Notes under the pieces: model-generated | Databases searched by the model: none | Told to the model about the DNA's origin: nothing | What the model saw: only the letters and a program-made list of their open reading frames with translations | NCBI GenBank assembly: GCA_009993045.1 | Contig: JAACUG010000070.1 | Location: 1-52,441, forward strand | Reading direction: 5' to 3' | DNA: 52,441 nucleotides | Source of the DNA: Cyanobacteria bacterium CG_2015-22_32_23 | GTDB taxonomy: Bacteria > Cyanobacteriota > Cyanobacteriia > Cyanobacteriales > Cyanobacteriaceae | Position numbers and translations under genes: made by a program | Shown here: positions 20,684-39,485 of the stretch, piece by piece | Layout of the letters: every line of letters starts with the position of its first letter | Numbering within the stretch: position 1 is the first letter of the stretch

Positions 20684-21805
20684 TTAGTTAACAGTGATGG
20701 TGAAATCTGGACTAATTTGATCCGCTACATTTGCTACCGTTTCAATCACATTTTGTGGTAATGGTATATAACCTAATTGCGACGCTACATCTTGCCCATA
20801 GGTTAAAGCATATTGAATCATCGCTTCCATGGCGATCGCCTTATTGGGATCATCATATTTTTGATAAGCTAAAATCCAAGTATAAGTAACAATAGGATAG
20901 GAATTTTCCCCAGGAGGATCAGTTATAAAAGCTCGTAAATTTTCAGGTAACTCCACGTTAGCTAAGGCATTAGTACCAGTTTCTTCCGATGGAGTAATAA
21001 AATTACCTTCTTTATTTTCGAGAATCGCCATAGGAATATTATTTTTCTTGGCAAAACCGTATTCTACATAACCGATTGAACCTTGATTTTGTTGAATGAT
21101 AGCAGTAACACCTTCATTACCTCTACCTCCTAAAAATCTACCGCCCATAGGCCCCCATTGAACCGCCGTACCTTGACCAACTTTTTTTAACCAATCTTCA
21201 CTAATGTCCGCTAAATGTTTGGTAAATACTCCCGTTGTACCGCTACCATCAGAACGATGGACAAAAGTAATGGCACTATCAGGTAAAGTTAAATCAGGGT
21301 TATCACCGACAATTTTAGGATCATTCCAACGAGTTATTTTTCCTAAAGCAATATCAACATAAGTTTCTCTGCTTAATTTTAAACCTTCAACTCCTTGTAA
21401 GTTATAAGCAAAAACAATCGAACCAGCCGTCACAGGTAAAAGAATAACTCCTCGACTAACGGCTTTAATTTGTTCATCAGTCATGGCAACATCACTAGCA
21501 CCAAAATCAACGGTATTTCTAGTAAACTGTTCAATCCCCGCACCACTGCCAACGGATTGATAATTAACTTGTAATCGAGGTACTAAACGATTTAGTAATA
21601 CAAACCAATTTTGATATAAAGGGGCAGGAAAAGTTGCCCCAGCTCCAGTTATAGTAAGATTACTTTCAAAAGGAACTGTAATACTAGGAGGTTCGCCGTT
21701 TTTGCCTACTCCTTCTCTACTTTGATTATTACCACAAGCGTTTAAACTCAAGGCAAAGGTAAGGAAGACAAAAGATTTAATTAATCTACTTTTGATGATG
21801 ACCAT
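20684..21805 (-). CDS. pstS: phosphate-binding lipoprotein PstS, second copy
   Basis: 373 residues; lipobox L-N-A-C at about residue 24. TITGAGATFPAPLYQNWF, YQSVGSGAGIEQF, DFGASD and HRSDGSGTTGVFTKHL are the PstS phosphate-contact motifs. It is clearly homologous along its whole length to the gene just upstream (both share, for example, LPENLRAFITDP and KAIAxEAMIQYALT), so the pair arose by tandem duplication. It delivers phosphate to PstC/PstA from the periplasm. It starts 56 bp after the first copy and is likely in the same transcript. Confidence 0.93.
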   Translation of the reverse strand: MVIIKSRLIKSFVFLTFALSLNACGNNQSREGVGKNGEPPSITVPFESNLTITGAGATFPAPLYQNWFVLLNRLVPRLQVNYQSVGSGAGIEQFTRNTVDFGASDVAMTDEQIKAVSRGVILLPVTAGSIVFAYNLQGVEGLKLSRETYVDIALGKITRWNDPKIVGDNPDLTLPDSAITFVHRSDGSGTTGVFTKHLADISEDWLKKVGQGTAVQWGPMGGRFLGGRGNEGVTAIIQQNQGSIGYVEYGFAKKNNIPMAILENKEGNFITPSEETGTNALANVELPENLRAFITDPPGENSYPIVTYTWILAYQKYDDPNKAIAMEAMIQYALTYGQDVASQLGYIPLPQNVIETVANVADQISPDFTITVN

Positions 21806-21861
21806 GATTTTTAACTATCAAGTTGTTTTCTCCCTATAAACTAAAGGACGAAGATTAAATT

Positions 21862-23007
21862 CTAGTTAACGTTAATAGTAAAATCGGGAGTAATTTGATC
21901 GGCAACGGCGGCTACTTTTTCTACTACCGTAGCTGGTAAAGGCACATAACCTAAAGCTGGTGCTGATTTTTGACCTTCTGTTAAAGCATATTGAATCATA
22001 GCTTCCACGGCGATCGCCTTATTAGGATCATCGTATTTAGGAAAAGCTAAAATCCAACTATAAGTAACAATAGGATAGGATGTTTCACCTTCGGGATCAG
22101 TAATAAAAGCGCGTAAATTTTCGGGTAACTCCACGTTAGCTAAAGTTTCCGAAGCCGCTTCATCGGTAGGAGGAATAAATTGTCCTGCTTTATTTTGAAT
22201 CGCAGCCATATGTAGTTTATTATTTTTAGCGTAGCCATACTCTACATAGCCGATAGCCCCTTCATTTTGCATAATAGTAGCGGTTACACCCTCGTTACCT
22301 TTACCACCGAGGAATTTACCGCCATCGGGTCCCCATTGAACAGTTTTGCCTTCTCCGACTTTGGTTTTCCAATCTTCACTAATGGCGGATAAATGTTTAG
22401 TAAATACGCCTGTTGTACCACTACCATCAGAACGATGAACAAAAGTAATGGGTTTATCAGGTAAAGTTAAATCTGGATTATCAGCGACAATTTTGGGATC
22501 ATTCCATTTAGTTATTTTACCCAATGCAATGTCCACATAGGTTTCCCTACTTAACTTCAAACCTTCCACCCCGGGTAAATTATAGGCAAAAACGATAGAA
22601 CCAGCAGTAACAGGTAACATTAAAGCACCCTTGCTTACTTTCGCAATTTCTTCATCTTTCATGGCGGTGTCACTAGCACCAAAATCCACCGTACCGGCCG
22701 TAAACTGTTCAACTCCAGCACCACTACCCACCGATTGATAATTTACCTGTAATTTAGGTACTTTTTGATTTAAAGCGACAAACCAATTTTGATATAGAGG
22801 AGCAGGAAAACTTGCTCCAGCACCAGTTAAAGCTACAGTATTTTCAAAAGGTACAGTAATAGATGCACTACTTTCTTGAGTTTCACCTTCTGTGGGAGTT
22901 TTTGTTGTAGTTGTTTCCTTCGTACCACCGCCACAAGCCGTTAAACTTAACCCTAAAGCTAGGATTGATAAAGATCCTGCGAGTTTATTTTTACTTTTAA
23001 TTATCAT
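21862..23007 (-). CDS. pstS: phosphate-binding lipoprotein PstS, first copy
   Basis: 381 residues; lipobox L-T-A-C near residue 25 followed by a Thr/Glu-rich linker. ALTGAGASFPAPLYQNWF and HRSDGSGTTGVFTKHL mark it as PstS. It is the first gene of the minus-strand pst operon, and a Pho-box-like repeat lies about 70 bp upstream of its ATG, as expected for a phosphate-starvation promoter. The two tandem copies may differ in affinity or expression, as reported for paired PstS proteins in other cyanobacteria; that is inference for this organism. Confidence 0.94.
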   Translation of the reverse strand: MIIKSKNKLAGSLSILALGLSLTACGGGTKETTTTKTPTEGETQESSASITVPFENTVALTGAGASFPAPLYQNWFVALNQKVPKLQVNYQSVGSGAGVEQFTAGTVDFGASDTAMKDEEIAKVSKGALMLPVTAGSIVFAYNLPGVEGLKLSRETYVDIALGKITKWNDPKIVADNPDLTLPDKPITFVHRSDGSGTTGVFTKHLSAISEDWKTKVGEGKTVQWGPDGGKFLGGKGNEGVTATIMQNEGAIGYVEYGYAKNNKLHMAAIQNKAGQFIPPTDEAASETLANVELPENLRAFITDPEGETSYPIVTYSWILAFPKYDDPNKAIAVEAMIQYALTEGQKSAPALGYVPLPATVVEKVAAVADQITPDFTINVN

Positions 23008-23076
23008 ATTTTGGAAATATTATTTTTATTTTGAGACTGTTTGGGATTTAATAATAATATGAATTAGACTTTTTTT

Positions 23077-23106
23077 AGGTAAAGAAAAGGTTAAGAACTT
23101 ATTTCC
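23077..23106 (-). promoter_or_regulatory. Pho-box-like operator for the pst operon
   Basis: On the minus strand, CTTAACCT and CTTTACCT are separated by exactly three bases (plus strand AGGTAAAG-AAA-AGGTTAAG, 23077-23095). A weaker third unit, TTATTTCC, follows at the same spacing. This matches the cyanobacterial Pho box: 8-bp direct repeats at 11-bp steps bound by the SphR/PhoB response regulator. It ends 70 bp upstream of pstS. Confidence 0.75.
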
Positions 23107-23191
23107 TTGAAAGGAAAGATTCATTTTTATGGATATTTAAAGGCTTATAAGTAATAAATATTAAGATTTTTTACCTTAATAAAAAACAAGA

Positions 23192-23210
23192 AGGTTAAGA
23201 ATAAATTAAG
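23192..23210. promoter_or_regulatory. second Pho-box-like repeat in the pstS-sphX region
   Basis: AGGTTAAG and AAATTAAG separated by three bases; on the other strand CTTAATTT-ATT-CTTAACCT. It lies 185 bp from pstS and 188 bp from sphX in the 390-bp divergent region, so it could serve sphX, the pst operon, or both. The rest of that region is AT-rich with no other motif I can support. Confidence 0.6.
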
Positions 23211-23397
23211 GATTTTTATTTAGAATTGATATATAATTTGTTTAGAAAAAATTAAACTATGAGCGTTATCTTTTTTGGTTAATATTCTTTAAAAAGTTTT
23301 AATCATTCTTAATAAAATTGACTAATAACATTGATATTAAATAAAGATAACGACAGTTTATCTAAACTTTTTGTTGAAAAATATTAACTAATAATTT

Positions 23398-24441
23398 ATG
23401 ATTAATAAGTATTCATTACTTAAGAAAAAAATTTTCTTACCAGTAGTTATTTTATCTACTATATTATCTGCTTGTGGTGGTACTAAAACTGAACAATCAC
23501 AAAATATAACCATAGATGGATCAAGTACGGTTTATCCTATCACTAATTCAATTGTCGAAAAATTTAACGCATCCAACAAAACAAATATCGAGGCAAAATC
23601 TGGTTTTTCAGGTTCAATCGGTGGATTTAGAAAATTTTGTCAAGGTGAAACTGAGATAAATAATTCTTCTGTGCCTATTCCTCAAACTTTCATGGATGAA
23701 TGTAAGAAAAATGGTATTGCTTATATAGAATTACCCGTTGCTTTTGATGCTTTAACCGTAGTAACTAACCCTAAAAATGATTGGGCAAAAATCATTACCG
23801 TAGAAGAATTAAAAAATATGTGGCAACCATCGGCAGAAAATAAAGTTACCCGTTGGAATCAAGTTAATAGTGAATGGGCAGATAAACCATTAAATTTATT
23901 TGGTGCTGGTAGAGATTCTGGTACATTTGAATATTTCACCGTGGCTATCATTGGGGAAGAAAATAGTCGTAATGATTATGTATTTAGTGAAGATGATAAC
24001 GCTTTAGTTCAAGGGGTAATACAAGATCCTAACGCTCTGGGTTATTTCGGTTATGCTTACTATTCTCAAAATAAAGATAAGTTACAAGCCGTAGCCATCG
24101 ATAACGGTAACGGAGGAATTTTACCCTCCGATGAAACCATCAAAAATAATAGCTATCGCCCCTTAACTCGCCCTTTATTTATCTATGTCAACGCTAAAAA
24201 AGCTCAAAAAAATAAAGCCTTAACCCAATTTATCAAATTTTATTTAGATAATGCTTCTAAAGTTGTTCATGAAGTAGGTTATTTACCCTTACCAGATTCT
24301 GCTTATAAAATTGCCTTAATTCATTTCAATAAAAATCAAGTAGGCACAGTATTTAATGGTAAACCTGAACTTAATGCCACTATTAATGAATTACTCAATA
24401 GGACTTATGCTTCTGACAATAAAGAGGGTTATGTATTTTAA
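23398..24441 (+). CDS. sphX: SphX-type phosphate-binding lipoprotein
   Basis: 347 residues; lipobox L-S-A-C near residue 25. ITIDGSSTVYPITNSIVEKF, KSGFSGSIGGFRKFCQGE and GAGRDSGTFEYF are the phosphate-site motifs of the SphX/PstS-like branch, distinct from the two true PstS genes on the other strand (TGAGATFPAP, GSGTTGVF). In Synechococcus and Synechocystis, SphX is made under phosphate limitation and sits beside pst genes; the divergent placement with Pho-box-like repeats fits that here. Confidence 0.85.
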   Translation: MINKYSLLKKKIFLPVVILSTILSACGGTKTEQSQNITIDGSSTVYPITNSIVEKFNASNKTNIEAKSGFSGSIGGFRKFCQGETEINNSSVPIPQTFMDECKKNGIAYIELPVAFDALTVVTNPKNDWAKIITVEELKNMWQPSAENKVTRWNQVNSEWADKPLNLFGAGRDSGTFEYFTVAIIGEENSRNDYVFSEDDNALVQGVIQDPNALGYFGYAYYSQNKDKLQAVAIDNGNGGILPSDETIKNNSYRPLTRPLFIYVNAKKAQKNKALTQFIKFYLDNASKVVHEVGYLPLPDSAYKIALIHFNKNQVGTVFNGKPELNATINELLNRTYASDNKEGYVF

Positions 24442-26509: not shown

Positions 26510-27745
26510 TTACTTGTTACTTTCATTTTTTTGTTTTATATACGTTGGTTTAAAGTTTTTTTTGTCATCTTTATTATAATTATTTTTTTTATCATCTTTA
26601 TTATAATTACTTTTATTATCATCTTTTCTAAACCCTTTAGGATCAGGTTTATATCTAGGACAAGCATAAGGTATTACTTTTTTTATTTCCAAAGTACCTC
26701 CTTTTCTTTGACATAAAATTTTATAGACATATCCTGTCCATAATTTTTTATTTTTCACCCAATCAAAACTATTAATAAAAGTATATTTAAACTTCTTAAT
26801 AAAACCTGTTTCTTTAGCAACTTTACGCACATCTTCCATCATCATGGAACGTTGTACAGTTATGTTCTTTTGTGCAGTCCATACTCCTGTAAATTCCCAA
26901 GTTTCAAATCCTCTCGGATTACTAGGCATATCTTTATCCCAAGCAATAATTTGCAGACAAACTAACTTATCATCCTTCATTTTAGGATAACCCCTAAACC
27001 AGTGAGAGCCTAACATTATTTGTTGGTTACAAGCAATCCAATGTAATCGAGGATTTTTGAAAGTTACTTCTAATTGAAAACCATCAGGTAAAATCAATAA
27101 AAAAGGTTTCTCTGCCTCCGAAGGCGGTACTAATATACCTTGTACTTCAGCAATAGCCTGATGACAACCATTTCCTGCTAAAATTTTATAACGTTTTTTC
27201 TCGACTTTCTCAACTTTCTCAACTTTCTCAACCTTCTCAACTTTCTGGACTTTCTCAACCTTTTTAGAAGAAGATTTTTCTTGTTTTTTAGTAGTTGAAT
27301 TAACTTTAGTTTTTTCCTTAGAATTTAGATTTTTAGATTTATTCTCTCTAGTTTTTTCTTTTTCAATACTGATAGAATCTTGATTAACTTCTTTTTTAAT
27401 ACTGATGGAATCTTGGTTAACTTCTTTTTTAATACTGATAGAATCTTGGTTAACTTCTTCTGCAATCTTTTCCGATTCAACGGGTTGAATTGATACTGTG
27501 ATAGTTTCTTTTTCTTCTGAGGAGATTATGGGTAAATCCTTAGTCTTTTCTGATGATATTACTTCTAAAGGACAACAAAAACGACAAGGTGAATAACCTT
27601 TTTCGATTCCTTTAGGAAAAGACTCTAATACTTGCCAACCATCTTTTTCGTGATGACAGTGACGACAATGTTGAGCATGAATTTTATTAGTAGGTGAGAC
27701 GTAAAAAATAGTTTCGGTTGGTTTTTTCTTGGTTTCCCTTGTCAT
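26510..27745 (-). CDS. repeat-rich protein with N-terminal Cys/His cluster
   Basis: 411 residues; family not recognised. An N-terminal CRHCHH ... CRFCC cluster (about residues 27-57) looks able to bind metal. Three copies of KEVNQDSISIK follow (about 95-130), then a Lys/Glu tract with repeated VEK triplets (about 165-187), which may form a charged helix. A structured domain (about 188-345; ILPDGFQLEVTFKNPRLHWI, GFETWEFTGVWTAQ) and a basic Asn/Asp/Lys tail end the protein. The VEK and KEVNQ repeats are direct repeats in the DNA as well. It is divergent from the Ycf66-family gene, 235 bp away. Confidence 0.65.
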   Translation of the reverse strand: MTRETKKKPTETIFYVSPTNKIHAQHCRHCHHEKDGWQVLESFPKGIEKGYSPCRFCCPLEVISSEKTKDLPIISSEEKETITVSIQPVESEKIAEEVNQDSISIKKEVNQDSISIKKEVNQDSISIEKEKTRENKSKNLNSKEKTKVNSTTKKQEKSSSKKVEKVQKVEKVEKVEKVEKVEKKRYKILAGNGCHQAIAEVQGILVPPSEAEKPFLLILPDGFQLEVTFKNPRLHWIACNQQIMLGSHWFRGYPKMKDDKLVCLQIIAWDKDMPSNPRGFETWEFTGVWTAQKNITVQRSMMMEDVRKVAKETGFIKKFKYTFINSFDWVKNKKLWTGYVYKILCQRKGGTLEIKKVIPYACPRYKPDPKGFRKDDNKSNYNKDDKKNNYNKDDKKNFKPTYIKQKNESNK

Positions 27746-27980
27746 GGCTTCTCGGAAATAAGTGTTTTTTTTTGATTAGTGATTTATTAATAGTGTTTCA
27801 TTTTAAATGGTTTTTCCTCTCTTATACAGATTTTCTTGATATTCTCTGGAATTTTTCTGTCTCTATAATGAGTTTTTAATAAAAATTGTTAAATATTCAT
27901 CAGTTTGTGTTTAATTCTGAAGATAATAAAACCGCTTCAAGTATAATAGTCAAGAGAAATATATATATGGAGAACAAGCA

Positions 27981-29552
27981 ATGTTAGCTTACTTTCTCGC
28001 CACAATTATGGCTATTATTAGCTTAACACTATATCTGAATGCTTTTATTCGTCCTAAATTTCACCGACAGGATGACTTTTTATGGAGTGGGTTGGGGTTA
28101 TTTTACTCCTTAACTCTTTGGATATGTGCAGGTAGAATTACAGGGGCTGTATTATTAGGACAATTTGCGGTAACTTTTATCGCTATTGCTTTTATTTGGG
28201 AAAATCGTCAATTAAGAAAAGTTATTACGGCTAACGCAGATTCTAATCAAGTTTTAGAAGGATTTTCCGTTTTAAGTTTGATGCTTACTTCTTTGAGTAA
28301 ACTATCAGAATTGACAAAGAAAAAACCTCCCATTATCAATAAAACAAAAATTAATAATCAAGATAATAGTAACTTAAAAGAAAAAACCGAAACTGTTACC
28401 CAAAAAATACCAACACCACAACCTCAAGAAATTGTTTCTCCAGAAGTAACTACAGAATCTGTTTCTATTCCAGCAGTAGCCCAAGAGATTATCCTCTCAG
28501 AAAATGACACAAAAGACGAGGCAAAAGAAGCTGATAAAGTTATCAACAACATTGCTACTAATGAGGAGGAAAAAGAAGAAGCAATACCATCATCTATGGA
28601 TTCTCCTGAAATATCTTCCTCTCCTATGGAAGAAAAACCTTCAGTAATAAATATTGTAGATGTTGAGGAAACAAACTTAGATGACGATTTTGATATTGAT
28701 TCTCTTGGTTTATCTCCCTCTTCAGAAAATCAACCTTTACCTCCCAAATCCTATTTTGGCAAAATTTTTGCCGCTTTGGGTAAACCATTTCAACGTAAAG
28801 CAACTCCTCCCCCAAAATCTCCAGATTTAATCGTTAATCAAGAAGTTGATGATAATGAAGAATCTGTTATTCATACTGATATAGTGGAAATTGATCCTAA
28901 AACTACCGCTACTGAAGTAGAAGAGGCGATCGCTAATTGTGATATATTAGATTCTAAAAATAATATGTCTGAGGAAGAGGAAACTATTAACCCTGAAACG
29001 GAAATGGAAATAGATATAGTTACTCAAAATCAAGAGGAAACTATTAACCCTGAAACGGAAATGGAAATAGATATAGTTACTTTAAATCAAGAAGAAACTA
29101 TCAACCCTGAAACGGAAATGGAAATAGATATAGTTACTTTAAATCAAGAAGAAACTATCAACCCTGAAACGGAAATGGATATAGGTATAGTTACTCAAAA
29201 TCAAGAAGAAACTATTAACCCTGAAACTGAAACAGAAACTGAAACAGAAACGGAAACTGAAATGGATATAGTTACTCAAAATCAAGAAGAAACTATTAAC
29301 CCTGAAATGGAAACCGACATAGTTACTTTAAATCAAGAAGAAACTATCAACCCTGAAATGGAAACCGACATAGTTACTCACAATCAAGAGGAAACTATTA
29401 ATAATCAAGAGGAAAAAATAGAAGAAGAATTATTCTCTGAAAAATCCTCTGACGTAGATGATATTAACTCTCAAGATATTCCTGAAGAAGATATAATTGA
29501 CACTTTATCTGATTTATTTCCAGTCACAAAAACCACTAATCAAGAATCATAA
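27981..29552 (+). CDS. Ycf66-family protein with long acidic repeat tail
   Basis: 523 residues. Residues 1-85 match the Ycf66 N-terminal domain: two or three membrane segments with FIRPKFHRQDDFLWSGLGLF and GAVLLGQFAVTFIAIAFIWE. Ycf66 is encoded in plastids and cyanobacteria; its function is not established. The rest is highly acidic and disordered-looking, with seven tandem copies of a 17-27 residue unit (EETINPETEMEIDIVTQNQ) at about 333-473 and a Glu-Thr run inside one copy. The tail is probably cytoplasmic. The start has GGAG about 10 bases upstream. Confidence 0.85.
   Translation: MLAYFLATIMAIISLTLYLNAFIRPKFHRQDDFLWSGLGLFYSLTLWICAGRITGAVLLGQFAVTFIAIAFIWENRQLRKVITANADSNQVLEGFSVLSLMLTSLSKLSELTKKKPPIINKTKINNQDNSNLKEKTETVTQKIPTPQPQEIVSPEVTTESVSIPAVAQEIILSENDTKDEAKEADKVINNIATNEEEKEEAIPSSMDSPEISSSPMEEKPSVINIVDVEETNLDDDFDIDSLGLSPSSENQPLPPKSYFGKIFAALGKPFQRKATPPPKSPDLIVNQEVDDNEESVIHTDIVEIDPKTTATEVEEAIANCDILDSKNNMSEEEETINPETEMEIDIVTQNQEETINPETEMEIDIVTLNQEETINPETEMEIDIVTLNQEETINPETEMDIGIVTQNQEETINPETETETETETETEMDIVTQNQEETINPEMETDIVTLNQEETINPEMETDIVTHNQEETINNQEEKIEEELFSEKSSDVDDINSQDIPEEDIIDTLSDLFPVTKTTNQES
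28978..29400 (+). repeat. in-frame tandem repeats in the Ycf66-family gene
   Basis: About seven direct repeats of roughly 51-57 bp with a conserved GAAACTATTAACCCTGAAAC core (T/C variants), plus a nested 6-bp GAAACT/GAAACA run near 29221-29260 that encodes Glu-Thr. Lengths stay in frame. Such a region should vary in copy number between strains and is a likely place for assembly errors. Confidence 0.85.
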
Positions 29553-34417: not shown

Positions 34418-34954
34418 TTAAATTTCTTCTACTTTACCGTCAAGATGGACAAAATATAATTCTACTTCTAAATTAGAATATTTCTCTTTGATAATAGACT
34501 TTGCTTGACTTAAATATTGACGATGAGTTTGTAATTCTTTCTCTGGATTTTCACTTAATTTAGCATCAATTTTACTAGCATAAGCTCCACAGTCTTGATG
34601 ATCTAAAATAATCACTTTTTCGATATGATGTAACTTATAAGATAAGGCTAATTGTTCCCAAAAAACTTCTGTATCAGCATGGGAAGGAAAATCATTTAAA
34701 GCTAATGAAGCACCAGCTAAACTTAACCAATCAAATTCATGATCTAAATTACTATTTATCAAAAAATTTTGCTCGAAATCCACAAAACGAAAATCAATGC
34801 AACTCAATACTAAGGCTTTTGCTTTATGATCTGCTTTTGCCGATAAAGGAGAAGATAACCAAAAAGATAAGCCTAAACTTCCTGTTAATAATAATTTAGT
34901 AAAATCTCGTCTTTTACAAGTACAAATATTTAATTTATTTTCTTTTTTATTCAT
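34418..34954 (-). CDS. Tat-exported beta-carbonic-anhydrase-like protein
   Basis: 178 residues. A twin-arginine signal is clear: KRRDFTK (Arg15-Arg16) followed by a hydrophobic stretch (LLLTGSLGLSFWLSSPLSA) with likely cleavage after AKA. The mature part has the beta-carbonic-anhydrase zinc set: Cys52-x-Asp54-x-Arg56 (SCIDFRF) and His119-x2-Cys122 (LDHQDCGAY). All four metal-site residues and the Asp/Arg dyad are kept, so hydration of CO2 is plausible, but the protein is short and some family members have other activities. It is last in the minus-strand run after the SulP transporter and the receiver. Confidence 0.75.
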   Translation of the reverse strand: MNKKENKLNICTCKRRDFTKLLLTGSLGLSFWLSSPLSAKADHKAKALVLSCIDFRFVDFEQNFLINSNLDHEFDWLSLAGASLALNDFPSHADTEVFWEQLALSYKLHHIEKVIILDHQDCGAYASKIDAKLSENPEKELQTHRQYLSQAKSIIKEKYSNLEVELYFVHLDGKVEEI

Positions 34955-34991
34955 TATTAATAGTAAATTTTGATAGATTAAATAAGATTAA

Positions 34992-35360
34992 TTATATATT
35001 AAGTAACGCTTTTTCAATAATATTAATTAAGGTGTTAGGTTTGATCATTTTATTAAAAAATAAACTAATTCCTAATTCCCAAATTTTAAGACAACTTTCT
35101 CCATAGATTTGATTATATAGAAGTATAATCGGTATTTTTTGACTAAAAATTAATTCTCTTATTGTCTTTAAATTGCGATAATTTTTTTCTTGATTAATAT
35201 CTAGATCTGTGATAATTATATCAGGATATTGCTCACTAATTAATTTAATTCCTTCTTGATAATTAAAAGTAGTAATTATATGAAAATTTGTTAAATTTGA
35301 ACAATTAACTAGATGATTATTTAAAGTGCAATCTTCGCTAATTATCAAAATATTTTTCAT
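34992..35360 (-). CDS. stand-alone response-regulator receiver domain
   Basis: 122 residues, receiver only. Acidic pair Glu9/Asp10, phosphoacceptor Asp52 (IITDLDI) and Lys107 (MIKP) are present. The usual Thr/Ser switch residue is replaced (IILLYNQ, Tyr82), so signalling may be altered. There is no output domain and no kinase in the window. It lies 37 bp before the carbonic-anhydrase-like gene and 76 bp after the SulP gene, on the same strand. Confidence 0.75.
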   Translation of the reverse strand: MKNILIISEDCTLNNHLVNCSNLTNFHIITTFNYQEGIKLISEQYPDIIITDLDINQEKNYRNLKTIRELIFSQKIPIILLYNQIYGESCLKIWELGISLFFNKMIKPNTLINIIEKALLNI

Positions 35361-35436
35361 GGTAATTACTATATTATTTAAAATCGATTAAATTCCCAAT
35401 AATAGAAACTTTGAAACAAAGGTTATTTTCTTTTAC

Positions 35437-37101
35437 TTAAACTTCTGATAATTCTTTATCTTGGGTTTCTAAAATTGGCAAATGAGGATGTATAGCGTAA
35501 ATTGCTTGAGTGGTGGTATCAAAACAATTATCGCTACCAATTTTATCTAATAATCCTGTGCGATTTAAAATTTCTTTAACTTCTGGTTGTAAACCTGTTA
35601 ACATTAGACGGCAATCATGACGTTTCAAGTCTCGGTAAATATCTTCTAAGGCTACTAATCCCGTAGTATCAATATTTGGCACGAAACGCAAACGTAAGAT
35701 GAGATATTTTACTTCGGGTTCGTCTCTCAAAAAAGTGACAAATCTTTCTGCTGCTCCAAAAAATACAGGGCCATCCACACGATATACAGCTATTTCTTGG
35801 GTTAATTCTAAAGGGATACCTTCTGGAAAAACCTCTGTTTCAGGGATTTTAGCTAAACTTAAGTCACTCATGCGTTTGATAAATAATGCCCCCGCAGCGA
35901 TTAAGCCTATTTCTACCGCTAAAACTAAGTCAAATATGATAGTAACTGACCATGTTAAAAGCATTACCGCTAAATCAGAATACGTTGCTCTTAATAATAA
36001 ACCAATGGCTTCCCATTCAATCATTCTGATACTTGTTACCATGAGGATTCCCGCCAGTGCAGCAAGGGGAATTTGGGCAGCATAAGGGGCAAAGATTAAG
36101 ATAATCAATGCTAAAGCGATACCATGAATAACTCCTGAAACTCTTGTTTTACCACCTGAGCGCACATTAACAGCAGTACGAGCGATCGCACCAGTAGCAG
36201 GAATACCGCCGAAAAATGGTACAACCATATTAGCAATACCTTGCCCAATTAATTCTCTGTTACTGTTGTGTTTTTCACTAACTGTCATACCATCAGCAAC
36301 TACCGCCGATAATAATGATTCGATACTACCTAAAGCAGCTAAAGCTAAAGCAGGGCGAAATAACTCCCGTAATAGTTGCGGATCATTCCAATGAGGAATA
36401 CCATGAGGTAAGGGTAAAGATTGGGGAATTGTGCCAATGGTGGGGATGTCAAAATGAAAACTTACTGTTACCACCGTTGCTAAAACTAAACCCACTAAAG
36501 AGGCTGGGATGGAAGGATAAATATAAGGCCAAATTAACTTAGTTACAATGACAATACCAGCGATAGCCATAGAATAAGGATTGATTAAATCAAGGTGATG
36601 GAAAGTCTGCCATAAATTCTCGAAAAAATGTTCTTGACGAGGTAATTGTAAGCCAAAAAAGTTATTAAGTTGTCCAAAAAAGATAATGATAGCGATACCA
36701 TTAGTAAAACCTGCGGTAACAGGGTAAGGAATAAACTTCACTAACTGCCCTAATTTAGCGATACCCAGAGCAATTTGGATAATACCTGCCATAACTCCAG
36801 CAATCCAAACTTTTTCAATGCCATATTGACTGACAATGCCAATTAACACCACTGCCATCGCCCCCGTGGGTCCTGTAATCTGTACAGGTGAACCACCACA
36901 AATAGATGCAACAATACCAGCAACAATTGCCGTATATAACCCAGCTTTCGGATCAACTCCACTAGCGACAGCAAAAGCCAAAGCTAAGGGTAAAGCAACG
37001 ATAGCCGCCGTTAAACCTCCCGTTAAATCACCTTTAAAAGAATGCCAATAACTAACTTTAGATAATGATAATTGAGGGGATAATTCCTCTGAAATTGCCA
37101 T
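35437..37101 (-). CDS. SulP-family anion transporter with STAS domain
   Basis: 554 residues: a SulP membrane domain with about 12-14 segments (GGLTAAIVALPLALAFAVAS at about 28-47, GPTGAMAVVLIGIV, PYPVTAGFTNGIAIIIFFGQ) and a C-terminal STAS domain (about 430-540; FVPNIDTTGLVALEDI). SulP proteins carry sulfate, bicarbonate or other anions; BicA is the known Na+-dependent bicarbonate member in cyanobacteria. The GPTGAMAVV block differs from the SEPTGPMTVV-like one I recall for BicA, so I leave the symbol blank. It lies 25 bp after the MBL-fold gene, in an operon-like series. Confidence 0.9.
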   Translation of the reverse strand: MAISEELSPQLSLSKVSYWHSFKGDLTGGLTAAIVALPLALAFAVASGVDPKAGLYTAIVAGIVASICGGSPVQITGPTGAMAVVLIGIVSQYGIEKVWIAGVMAGIIQIALGIAKLGQLVKFIPYPVTAGFTNGIAIIIFFGQLNNFFGLQLPRQEHFFENLWQTFHHLDLINPYSMAIAGIVIVTKLIWPYIYPSIPASLVGLVLATVVTVSFHFDIPTIGTIPQSLPLPHGIPHWNDPQLLRELFRPALALAALGSIESLLSAVVADGMTVSEKHNSNRELIGQGIANMVVPFFGGIPATGAIARTAVNVRSGGKTRVSGVIHGIALALIILIFAPYAAQIPLAALAGILMVTSIRMIEWEAIGLLLRATYSDLAVMLLTWSVTIIFDLVLAVEIGLIAAGALFIKRMSDLSLAKIPETEVFPEGIPLELTQEIAVYRVDGPVFFGAAERFVTFLRDEPEVKYLILRLRFVPNIDTTGLVALEDIYRDLKRHDCRLMLTGLQPEVKEILNRTGLLDKIGSDNCFDTTTQAIYAIHPHLPILETQDKELSEV

Positions 37102-37126
37102 AATTTTAAAACTCCAAAATAATTTT

Positions 37127-37960
37127 TTACAATGAATCTAAATAATGTGATAAACCTGATTGATGTTGAGTAGAAATATGTCTTAATCTATCTAAATATT
37201 TAGAAATTTTGATACCACCATCTTCATGGGTAGATAAAATTTTCTTGTTACTAATGCCTGATATTGAACCTTTAGCATGATTAGTATATATCTGTTTCAT
37301 TTCAGAAGTTAAAGGCAGATTATCTTTATTAGAAACAATGATAATTTCAGGATTACAGTAGTTAAAAACTTCTTTACAATATCCTTTTTCTTCCCCATGA
37401 TGTGAGGCAACAAATATATTTACTTTTTCTAATTGACGACGGAAATCATAACTTTTTAATAAGTTTTGCCATCCATTAGTATCTAAATCACTAGGGAAAA
37501 TAATATTAATATCAGCATAGTGTAAAAAAGTAACTAAACTAGCACTATATTTAGTACCAAAACTTGAAGTTTCATTCCAAAAAAAAGTTAATTTTAAATC
37601 ATCAATTTCCATAGTTTTACTATTTCCAATCGGATTATATAAACTATTAGCTAAGGGTAAAGGAAAAGGTTTTTTATTGGAAATTTGTTCGGGGTTTAAA
37701 CTCGGATTAAATACTAGAAAATGAATGGGAATATCATGTTGAAAAGATTGGGTAATTAAATCAGGAAAACCCGATAAATTATCTTCAGTATAAGCAGATA
37801 AAATTAAATAATCTAAATATTTACAATGCCTATGCCATACATATTGAGCAGGTTCAAAGTTTTTTCCCGCACCGCAATCAATTAAAATAGTATTGGAATT
37901 ACTAAGTTCAATGGCGGCACAAAATCCATGATCAACGTGAAAAATTTTAATGTCTATCAT
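37127..37960 (-). CDS. degenerate metallo-beta-lactamase-fold protein, ComEC-like
   Basis: 277 residues with the order of the soluble ComEC/MBL-fold domain: FHVDHGFCAAIELSNSNTIL, IDCGAGKN, then a metal-motif position, an Asp (FPSD, 158) and SHHGEEKG (His187-His188-Gly189). The main H-x-H-x-D-H motif is not kept: residues 56-61 read AYTEDN, so only the Asp remains. The protein is therefore probably inactive as a hydrolase, or uses fewer metals. It lies between the ArsR-type gene (17 bp) and the SulP gene (25 bp), so it likely acts with them, perhaps as a binding or sensor protein. Confidence 0.7.
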   Translation of the reverse strand: MIDIKIFHVDHGFCAAIELSNSNTILIDCGAGKNFEPAQYVWHRHCKYLDYLILSAYTEDNLSGFPDLITQSFQHDIPIHFLVFNPSLNPEQISNKKPFPLPLANSLYNPIGNSKTMEIDDLKLTFFWNETSSFGTKYSASLVTFLHYADINIIFPSDLDTNGWQNLLKSYDFRRQLEKVNIFVASHHGEEKGYCKEVFNYCNPEIIIVSNKDNLPLTSEMKQIYTNHAKGSISGISNKKILSTHEDGGIKISKYLDRLRHISTQHQSGLSHYLDSL

Positions 37961-37977
37961 AAATAGTTAATAATATT

Positions 37978-38298
37978 TTATTCCAGTTTTTGTAAAGCAT
38001 TTTTGACTTGCACTAAATGATTATTAAAAACTTCTTTTGCAGAGTCTAACACTTTAAAGATTGCTAATTCATTGATTGAATAAAAAATATAGTTACCCTG
38101 TCTGCGACTTTTTACTAAATGGTAGCGCCGCAAAATTGCTAACTGCTGAGATACAGAAGACGCTTCTATTTCCAACCACCCTGCAATATCATTAACACTA
38201 ATTTCTCCTTGTCTGAGAGTGTCTAAAATTTCTATCCTCACTGGATTAGAGAGAATTTTAAACAAATCAGCTTTAAAGTAACTTGGTTGAAAAGACAT
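37978..38298 (-). CDS. ArsR-family winged-helix regulator without metal cysteines
   Basis: 106 residues, ArsR/SmtB layout: LFKILSNPVRIEILDTLRQG, then the recognition helix EIEASSVSQQLAILRRYHLV and the wing KSRRQGNYIFYSI. The protein has no cysteine at all, so the classic alpha3N and thiol metal sites are missing; other ArsR proteins without Cys answer to sulfur species, redox or small molecules. First gene of the minus-strand series. A palindrome lies 45 bp upstream in the region shared with prk. Confidence 0.85.
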   Translation of the reverse strand: MSFQPSYFKADLFKILSNPVRIEILDTLRQGEISVNDIAGWLEIEASSVSQQLAILRRYHLVKSRRQGNYIFYSINELAIFKVLDSAKEVFNNHLVQVKNALQKLE

Positions 38299-38342
38299 CT
38301 GATTATCTGAGTATCTTAAAAGTTCTTCATATAGTTTAGCAC

Positions 38343-38357
38343 AACTTTTTAAAAGTT
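38343..38357. promoter_or_regulatory. palindrome between arsR-type gene and prk
   Basis: AACTTTTTAAAAGTT is a 15-base inverted repeat with a central T, lying 45 bp before the ArsR start and 118 bp before prk. A related half (TTAAAAGTTC) lies at 38316-38325. ArsR-type dimers bind such AT-rich dyads, so it is a candidate operator for auto-regulation; AT-richness means chance is not excluded. Confidence 0.45.
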
Positions 38358-38474
38358 AAAAATAATCAATTAACAGAATTAACTATAGATTAGTGTGCAT
38401 TTGACTGATAAGATAACAAACAATAGAAAAATTACTGATATAAGTAAAATTTAGTTTCAACTATAGAGGAAAAT

Positions 38475-39485
38475 ATGACTCAAGATAGAGTAGTTATTAT
38501 TGGCGTTGCGGGTGACTCTGGTTGTGGAAAGTCAACTTTTTTGCGCCGTTTAGAAGATTTATTTGGTAAAGAATTTATGACGGTTATCTGTCTTGATGAC
38601 TACCACTGTTTAGATCGTAAAGGCAGAAAAGAAGCAGGTGTAACCGCATTGAATCCTCGTGCTAACAATTTCGACTTAATGGCAGAACAAATTAAGGCGT
38701 TAAAAAATGGTCAAACTATTGATAAACCTATATATAATCATGAAACTGGAGAATTAGATCCTCCTGAAAAAATCGAACCTAATAAAGTAATTGTGATTGA
38801 AGGTTTACACCCTCTTTATGATGCAAGAGTTAGAGAATTAGTTGATTTCAGCGTTTATCTTGACATCAGCGAAGAAGTAAAAATTAACTGGAAAATTCAG
38901 CGTGACATGGCTGAAAGAGGTCATAGTTATGATGACGTGGTGGCTTCCATTATGTCCAGAAAACCTGACTTTACCGCTTATATTGAACCTCAAAAACAAT
39001 ATGCAGACATCGTTATTCAAGTATTACCTACTCAATTAATTAAAGACGAAAAAGAAGGTAAAATTTTACGAGTTCGTCTCATCGAAAAAGAAGGTATTGA
39101 ACATTTCGCTCCTACATACTTGTTTGATGAAGGTTCAACTATTGATTGGCGCCCTTGTGGACGTAAACTTACTTGTGCATTCCCCGGTCTTAAAATGTAT
39201 TATGGACCTGATAATTACATGGGTAATGAAGTTTCAATTCTTGAAGTTGATGGTCAATTCGATAACCTCGAAGAAATTTTATATATTGAAAGTCATTTAA
39301 GTCGCACTGGAACTAAATATCACGGTGAAATGACAGAGCTATTACTAAAACATAAAGATTACCCCGGTTCTAATAATGGTACTGGTTTATTCCAAGTTTT
39401 AGTTGGTTTAAAAATGCGTGAAACTTATGAACAATTAACAGGTATAAATGCAAATACAGAAGAGAAAGAAGTTGTAACGGTTTAA
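38475..39485 (+). CDS. prk: phosphoribulokinase
   Basis: 336 residues. P-loop GVAGDSGCGKST (10-21) with Cys17, and Cys39 (VICLDDYH), form the known thioredoxin-type pair; the C-terminal pair Cys228/Cys234 (RPCGRKLTCAFPG) binds CP12/GAPDH in the dark complex. It makes ribulose-1,5-bisphosphate from ribulose-5-phosphate in the Calvin cycle. It starts at ATG 38475 with AGAGGA upstream and ends before a strong hairpin. Confidence 0.97.
   Translation: MTQDRVVIIGVAGDSGCGKSTFLRRLEDLFGKEFMTVICLDDYHCLDRKGRKEAGVTALNPRANNFDLMAEQIKALKNGQTIDKPIYNHETGELDPPEKIEPNKVIVIEGLHPLYDARVRELVDFSVYLDISEEVKINWKIQRDMAERGHSYDDVVASIMSRKPDFTAYIEPQKQYADIVIQVLPTQLIKDEKEGKILRVRLIEKEGIEHFAPTYLFDEGSTIDWRPCGRKLTCAFPGLKMYYGPDNYMGNEVSILEVDGQFDNLEEILYIESHLSRTGTKYHGEMTELLLKHKDYPGSNNGTGLFQVLVGLKMRETYEQLTGINANTEEKEVVTV

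Follow-up and report, generated by a model that had tools for sequence, protein, structure and literature searches.

The window analyzed here is a stretch of 52,441 nucleotides from Cyanobacteria bacterium CG_2015-22_32_23, and it constitutes contig C58 of this 3.27-Mb cyanobacterial genome. Its minus strand carries five open reading frames (ORFs) in a row, which encode an ArsR-type repressor, a protein with a metallo-beta-lactamase (MBL) fold, a SulP transporter, a stand-alone receiver domain and a protein resembling the beta-type carbonic anhydrases (CAs). A predicted operator precedes arsR, and the phosphoribulokinase gene prk is the divergent neighbor (Table 1). A first-pass annotation of this DNA had placed the five genes on a single strand with gaps of 17, 25, 76 and 37 bp, and the ORF coordinates bear this out. 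As described below, these genes very likely represent a real module under ArsR control, which would be exerted through the predicted operator. Throughout, L-numbers (e.g., L031) refer to loci and G-numbers (e.g., G001) to the genomes compared.

Table 1. Position of the module genes, the predicted operator and the neighboring prk gene in the window.
Feature	Position	Strand	Evidence
ArsR/SmtB-type repressor, 106 aa	37978..38298	-	PF01022 and NF033788 above cut-off
Conserved 29-bp site, the predicted ArsR operator including a -10 element	38312..38340	-	Position weight matrix (PWM), 34.4 bits
MBL-fold protein, 277 aa, a relative of PADLOC PDC-M48B and of the beta-lactamase-like domain of ComEC	37127..37960	-	9ic4 fold match, PDC-M48B match
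SulP/SLC26 anion transporter with STAS, 554 aa	35437..37101	-	PF00916 E 3.8e-89, PF01740 E 7.6e-21
Stand-alone receiver domain, 122 aa	34992..35360	-	PF00072 E 7.7e-9
Beta-CA-like protein (Pro_CA_2) with RRDF leader, 178 aa	34418..34954	-	PF20393 E 4.9e-12
prk (phosphoribulokinase), divergent neighbor, module membership not claimed	38475..39485	+	Pfam PRK, PF00485

The five genes belong to a real, patchily distributed cyanobacterial module. A scan of named genomes yielded 65 loci with a SulP at 74-85% identity, and the carriers named by it include culturable strains such as Hydrococcus rivularis NIES-593 and Anabaena catenula FACHB-362. ArsR is found near SulP in 22 of them (L070 through fragments only), the CA-like protein in 15, the MBL protein in 14 and a receiver (E < 1e-5) in eight; one contig can stand under two locus names in these counts. 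The partners are nested, in that all 14 loci with MBL contain ArsR and all eight with a receiver contain MBL. All five families are present together in L031, L043, L078, L082, L084, L085 and L094. Five of 60 genomes, including the window's own, have a SulP relative that is 78% or more identical across most of its length. The cluster is thus conserved as a set of families that appear repeatedly near closely related SulP genes in cyanobacteria, with a gene order that varies. For example, the five-gene order of the window was seen again only in L031, a Gomphosphaeria metagenome-assembled genome (MAG) in which the CA gene has an in-frame stop. In L033, whose contig ends beyond the receiver, the first four genes stand in this order and the MBL match is split over two frames. 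L043 carries a CA fragment, and in L078 the CA is divided between two ORFs. In other loci an MBL-ArsR unit, sometimes with a receiver, is often divergent from SulP or from ArsR-SulP. Some further neighbor families have similar counts (10-15 loci), and nearly all of these come from Nostoc-like loci.

The same families were sought in 388 genomes of the class, where CA was found in 36, SulP (E <= 1e-200) in 43 and MBL (E <= 1e-15) in 19. SulP and CA occur together in 18 genomes versus 4.0 expected, SulP and MBL in 14 versus 2.1, and CA and MBL in seven versus 1.8, by a statistic that ignores relatedness. Wherever a genome has both CA and SulP (18 cases), the two are no more than 1.5 kb apart. The SulP threshold overlooks partial copies; for example, G099 was scored as having CA without SulP, yet a partial SulP adjoins its CA (L119). 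In the non-redundant protein sets mentioned below, sequences were merged at 90% identity (92% for SulP).

The window ArsR has an ArsR-type winged helix, and its orthologues are 61-85% identical where they are full-length. A 29-bp site with the consensus GTTAAACTATCTGCAAGACTTTGAAGATA recurs upstream of the non-redundant ArsR copies. The right 22 bp of the site form an imperfect palindrome, with a mean of 6.7 of 11 pairs matching versus 4.0 in shuffled sites. The left part resembles a -10 element, and by eye many loci show a TTGCC-like -35 element about 17 bp before it. In the window the site lies 13 bp before arsR with its palindromic core at 38312-38333, and the promoter elements recognized by eye are a -10 (TAAACT, 38333-38338) and a weak -35 (TTTAAC, 38355-38360) with a spacer of 16 bp. 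The window site has a PWM score of 34.4 bits; the next best in the window is 9.1, and the maximum in 1050 trials with shuffled upstream regions was 12.7. It is also the sole strong match in its own genome (E 6.5e-5, the next being 0.08), where the site itself belongs to the training set.

Among loci L031-L095, the site is within 160 bp of 24 of the 26 full ArsR copies and is missing at L071 and at L080, where ArsR starts at the contig end. It is also present at 12 SulP genes that have no ArsR directly upstream, six of them without a full ArsR in the locus (L091 was excluded from this count because its upstream sequence is short). ArsR upstream regions served to train the PWM, and the evidence from these SulP sites is therefore more independent. 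In total, 38 of the 39 sites above 17 bits are at ArsR or SulP. A nearby site is lacking at 39 SulP loci; in two of these, L031 and L033, the site precedes the ArsR of the operon instead.

At the genome level, a model of the site (R1) gave matches with E <= 0.1 in 92 of the 388 genomes, most of them weak, and with E <= 2e-3 in 18. Sixteen of the 18 strong-site genomes are SulP genomes, with the site 43-1211 bp from SulP, and the other two, G002 and G020, both have ArsR; the PWM and R1 were partly trained on the loci and genomes counted, and several of the 18, including the window's genome, supplied R1 sites. Among 56 genomes chosen for having SulP, MBL or CA, a strong site is present in 17 of 32 that match ArsR at E <= 1e-30 (the G001 match being a pseudogene) versus one of 24 without ArsR. 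The single exception is G376, which has kept the site at SulP. The first-pass proposal that ArsR controls the cluster is therefore supported by a conserved, imperfectly palindromic site over the putative promoter of arsR and/or sulP. In G002, which is of the same genus as the window, ArsR and a near-consensus operator are located elsewhere, before a PepSY_TM gene and without a close SulP. This PepSY_TM gene (Pfam; L210:4728-5309) has relatives near ArsR, SulP and CA in L083, L084 and L094.

Sensor cysteines are the basis of the BigR/SqrR-type thiol switch. Cysteine is absent from 16 of the 21 non-redundant ArsR proteins, including that of the window, and the other five have one or two. Such a switch is unlikely because the window protein has no cysteine, and thiol sensing by it was set aside. 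Its match to the model of the sulfur regulator BigR is below the cut-off (55.1 of 155).

A second candidate for a sensing role is the MBL-fold protein. Its Pfam match is weak, with PF16661 below the cut-off. A structural model of it resembles 9ic4, the beta-lactamase-like domain of ComEC (E 3.9e-15), and the protein is homologous to PADLOC PDC-M48B over residues 3-252 (E 3.4e-29). The HxHxDH motif of catalytic metallo-beta-lactamases is replaced by AYTEDN (residues 56-61) in the window protein. The full motif is absent from all 26 non-redundant members of the family, among them the window protein, and many retain only the final [DE]H. MBL is present in 14 of 28 SulP genomes with ArsR versus none of 15 without it, and ArsR is present in 16 of the 17 MBL genomes examined (of 19; G351 and G352 were left out). 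In L149 and L150, MBL is paired with ArsR in the absence of SulP. Because the motif is gone and MBL follows ArsR, we lean toward the prediction that the protein serves as a regulatory partner of ArsR. A defense role, as the PDC-M48B match might suggest, is not preferred since the recurring partners are ArsR, SulP and CA, although PDC-M48 partners were not searched for. Two other features were seen near MBL genes. In many loci the MBL gene is preceded by an ORF of about 72 aa, e.g., L055:6567-6782 on the minus strand, with matches in 29 loci including duplicates; the one copy scanned has no Pfam match. A distant MBL relative in G351 (L151:4133-4951) is preceded by a small membrane-like protein in atypical surroundings, and this contig is possibly a contaminant.

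The window receiver has a candidate phospho-Asp in TDLDI (residues 51-55). As judged by eye, Ser takes the place of this Asp in the receivers between SulP and CA in L043, L084 and L094; a second L043 receiver retains the Asp. The proposed phosphorylation input via the receiver is weakened by these three Asp-to-Ser loci.

The CA-like protein matches Pro_CA_2 (PF20393) with 46.6 bits for a cut-off of 30 and falls below the cut-off for Pro_CA (PF00484, 22.3 of 25.7). All 13 aligned CA members match Pro_CA_2. The window protein has the residues of a beta-CA, namely the zinc ligands C52, H119 and C122 and the dyad D54/R56, and these five are invariant in the 13-member alignment. All 33 non-redundant CA members have the catalytic motifs, and all 33 likewise have the RR leader motif, which argues against a cytoplasmic location. 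In the AlphaFold2 model (mean pLDDT 74) the leader is disordered, and comparison of the model with enzymes of the beta-CA fold gives Z scores as high as 13.3 (3las, rmsd 2.3, 111 aligned). The carbonyl sulfide (COS) hydrolase 3vrk (Z 13.2) and the carbon disulfide (CS2) hydrolase 3ten (Z 12.5) tie with the CAs in this comparison. Judging from these residues and the predicted twin-arginine leader, the protein is probably an active, exported CA. The pairing of the SulP carrier with a protein of beta-CA type that is predicted to be exported is thus supported. The genome also encodes a canonical beta-CA. An observation about the leader is that conserved cysteines stand just before the twin arginines, within residues 11-13 (C11 is invariant, and C13 is present in at least 90% of 13 sequences), which is odd for a leader of the twin-arginine translocation (Tat) type. 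In addition, a small Thioredoxin_3-type gene is near SulP or CA in L078 (9507-9755), L082, L093 and L107, as checked with Pfam for L078 and L093.

The window SulP is a member of the SulP/SLC26 family by both its Sulfate_transp and STAS domains, which are above cut-off. It scores 299.9 bits with the BicA model NF050096, for which the cut-off is 880, and it is 33% identical to a separate, true BicA that the same genome encodes on contig C23 (957.8 bits). According to section 13 of PMC13249358, the Na+ ligands of BicA are Asp258, Thr262, Gly300 and Thr302, and Thr69 and Ala301 contact HCO3-. When the equivalent residues are placed by motif, Asp258, Thr262 and Thr302 are replaced by E261, S265 and I306 in the window SulP, Gly300 is kept as G304, and the HCO3- contacts are retained as T79 and A305. 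R308 is at the position of BicA Gly304. The E, I and R are present in all 27 aligned SulP orthologues and the S in 26 (Ala in L164), and five carriers from other phyla, 43-46% identical, have the same residue pattern. The Arg is also found in SULTR4;1 (Arg393) and prestin. However, 11 other cyanobacterial SulP proteins (L006-L016) have this Arg and yet keep the Asp, Thr and Thr of BicA, so the Arg alone says little. The suggestion of a BicA-like carrier was not borne out, as the BicA cut-off is missed and the Na+ ligands are replaced. Bicarbonate may still be the main cargo, an assignment that we place slightly on the doubtful side; the replaced Na+ ligands, the true BicA encoded elsewhere and the intact CA genes near decayed SulP genes speak against it, and the closeness of CA to SulP in all 18 genomes with both speaks for it. 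We note that bicA2 and bicA3 are gene names in some papers, as in passages on slr0096 (PMC9120777) and L. boryana (PMC10536570).

The neighboring prk gene had been read as a possible tie between carbon supply and fixation. Among the loci searched, many of which have short flanks, module genes adjoin prk within the genus of the window only, namely at loci from its own genome and from G001 (L214). Since the adjacency is confined to the genus, it would reflect local placement, and a functional tie to prk was rejected. In G001, the neighbors of prk (95%) are an intact CA (79%), what remains of a SulP, and an ArsR pseudogene interrupted by two stops; no MBL or receiver match is present at this locus. 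The dN/dS values between the window and G001 are 0.21 for CA and 0.06 for prk. The CA can outlive the carrier, because an intact CA persists beside a decayed SulP. Elsewhere in the window, three genes for PstS-like phosphate-binding proteins are near pst transporter genes at 20684-24441, two in tandem and one on the opposite strand (names assigned by eye). At 26510-29552, two adjoining genes have long low-complexity repeats with KVEKVEK and EETINPETEMEIDIVT units. The window has no Rfam match at the gathering threshold.

The best explanation for the cluster would be an ArsR-repressed module for anion transport and external CO2/HCO3- conversion, a reading that we consider about evenly balanced between right and wrong. 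From the position of the site, we infer that an ArsR dimer binds the palindrome over the -10/start region of arsR, which here would cover the whole operon, and elsewhere over that of sulP, and so keeps the genes off. A signal, probably received by ArsR and the catalytically degenerate MBL protein, and in some genomes also by the receiver, would release ArsR. SulP would then use an SLC26-type mechanism, minus the sodium site of BicA, to carry an anion across the inner membrane. The exported beta-CA would equilibrate CO2 and HCO3- on the far side and thereby feed or recapture HCO3-, or buffer the pH. The first-pass annotation had envisaged an exported CA that serves a SulP bicarbonate carrier under ArsR control; the cluster, the ArsR control and the pairing of a predicted exported CA with SulP are supported, and the BicA-like carrier, the strict tie between CA and SulP, the phosphorylation of the receiver and the link to prk were weakened or found no support. 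A more elaborate version, in which the dead MBL senses a metabolite or redox state, frees ArsR and turns on a sodium-independent SulP bicarbonate carrier together with an exported Pro_CA_2 that recaptures leaked CO2, would add to BicA, SbtA and BCT1 a separate inorganic-carbon system governed by ArsR. In this complete form it is unlikely.

Several observations weigh against the explanation of an ArsR-repressed anion and CO2/HCO3- module. No strong site is present in 15 of the 32 genomes with ArsR, and 36 of the 65 SulP loci have neither a full ArsR nor a site; the overlap between training and counted sequences mentioned above also belongs here, as do the replaced Na+ ligands. CA does not track ArsR, being found in 10 of 28 SulP genomes with ArsR and eight of 15 without. 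The close spacing of CA and SulP in every genome with both speaks for a partnership, but the case for a strict one is weakened: at the E 1e-200 threshold, 18 of the 36 genomes with CA give no SulP match, intact CA genes are near SulP remnants in G001, G030, G170 (4 kb away) and G400, and broken CA genes are beside a full SulP in L031, L043 and L078. The persistence of CA in these four genomes and the reverse in the three loci would fit two loosely coupled units, in which CA alone recaptures CO2 leaks or adjusts the pH of the periplasm or lumen, SulP alone serves anion or pH homeostasis, and clustering provides joint regulation only. This is also what the CA dN/dS value, the many Nostoc loci with SulP and none of the four partners, and the ten stand-alone CA loci (L152-L161), at which no site exceeds 17 bits, would suggest. 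Nevertheless, SulP and CA co-occur well above expectation and always within 1.5 kb, and two such units are distinctly unlikely.

The cargo could also be sulfate or another anion. SULTR4;1 couples transport to protons through Glu347, and in the window SulP a Glu replaces Asp258 of BicA and an Arg stands at the position of SULTR4;1 Arg393. The module would then be one for sulfur, with SulP as a proton-coupled carrier of sulfate or a similar divalent anion, a CA-fold protein that is COS/CS2-hydrolase-like or accessory, and an ArsR that senses sulfur status. The COS and CS2 hydrolases match the CA model as well as CAs do, and the ArsR matches BigR, though below the cut-off. However, ArsR has no cysteine, the Arg is no marker of sulfate carriers given its presence in prestin and in the L006-L016 proteins with BicA's Asp, and no sulfur-assimilation gene was recognized by eye among the 40 neighbor clusters listed, for which no systematic search was made. 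A sulfur module thus seems rather unlikely. That unrelated genes have come together beside prk by chance is extremely improbable. The same five-gene order is found in only one other of the 65 loci, L031, with its interrupted CA gene, as chance would predict; this view is contradicted by the recurrence of the families in varied orders in many cyanobacteria, by the co-occurrence counts and by the distribution of the shared operator.

If bicarbonate is the cargo, this would be an additional regulated module for carbon uptake in cyanobacteria, one that combines an unusual repressor with an exported CA and bears on carbon-concentrating mechanisms. With any cargo, the predicted operator makes the regulation directly testable, and the pair of ArsR and pseudo-MBL may be an undescribed sensing arrangement.

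Clusters of sulP and can and SulP-CA fusions are known, and passages of PMC6458275 and PMC2621215 propose them as bicarbonate or sulfate/carbonate systems; the former adds that the can2 transcript of A. ferrooxidans falls at high CO2. As in A. ferrooxidans can2-sulP (PMC6458275) and the cases of Felce and Saier 2004 (cited in PMC2621215), for which these passages have bicarbonate exchange or uptake proposed, sulP is linked to a beta-CA gene in the window, but here the receiver gene sits between the two. The CA of those systems, as the passages present it, is predicted to be cytoplasmic, whereas that of the window is a Pro_CA_2 protein with a twin-arginine leader, and the window cluster adds ArsR, the operator, the MBL-fold protein and the receiver. 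The carrier resembles BicA, as portrayed in passages of PMC13249358, in being a cyanobacterial SulP/SLC26 protein with STAS and equivalents of Thr69 and Ala301, and differs from it in its low identity, its score and the Glu/Ser/Ile that replace Asp258/Thr262/Thr302. EcaB of cyanobacteria, in the excerpts of PMC9865033, is also a beta-CA predicted to be outside the cytoplasm, a likeness of description rather than sequence; it is set apart, again by description, from the window CA, which is below the Pro_CA cut-off and within an ArsR cluster. The MBL-fold protein shares homology with PDC-M48B (residues 3-252) and a ComEC-type fold, but it lacks HxHxDH and is paired with ArsR, no specific search for a defense partner having been made. 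A plasmid of Cohnella herbarum (NZ_CP051681) has a SulP flanked by ArsR-type genes and an annotated carbonic anhydrase about 2.5 kb upstream; that SulP is only about 45% identical, and no MBL is annotated in the stretch. ArsR is not annotated in the stretches inspected around four other non-cyanobacterial SulP genes. Among the literature titles listed for SulP, ArsR, CA and MBL in cyanobacteria, none describes this module, and the ArsR operator, the pseudo-MBL partner and the export variant of Pro_CA_2 did not turn up there either. In conclusion, the predicted ArsR operator, the probable pseudo-MBL partner and the predicted exported Pro_CA_2 appear to be new features of a known type of SulP-CA cluster.

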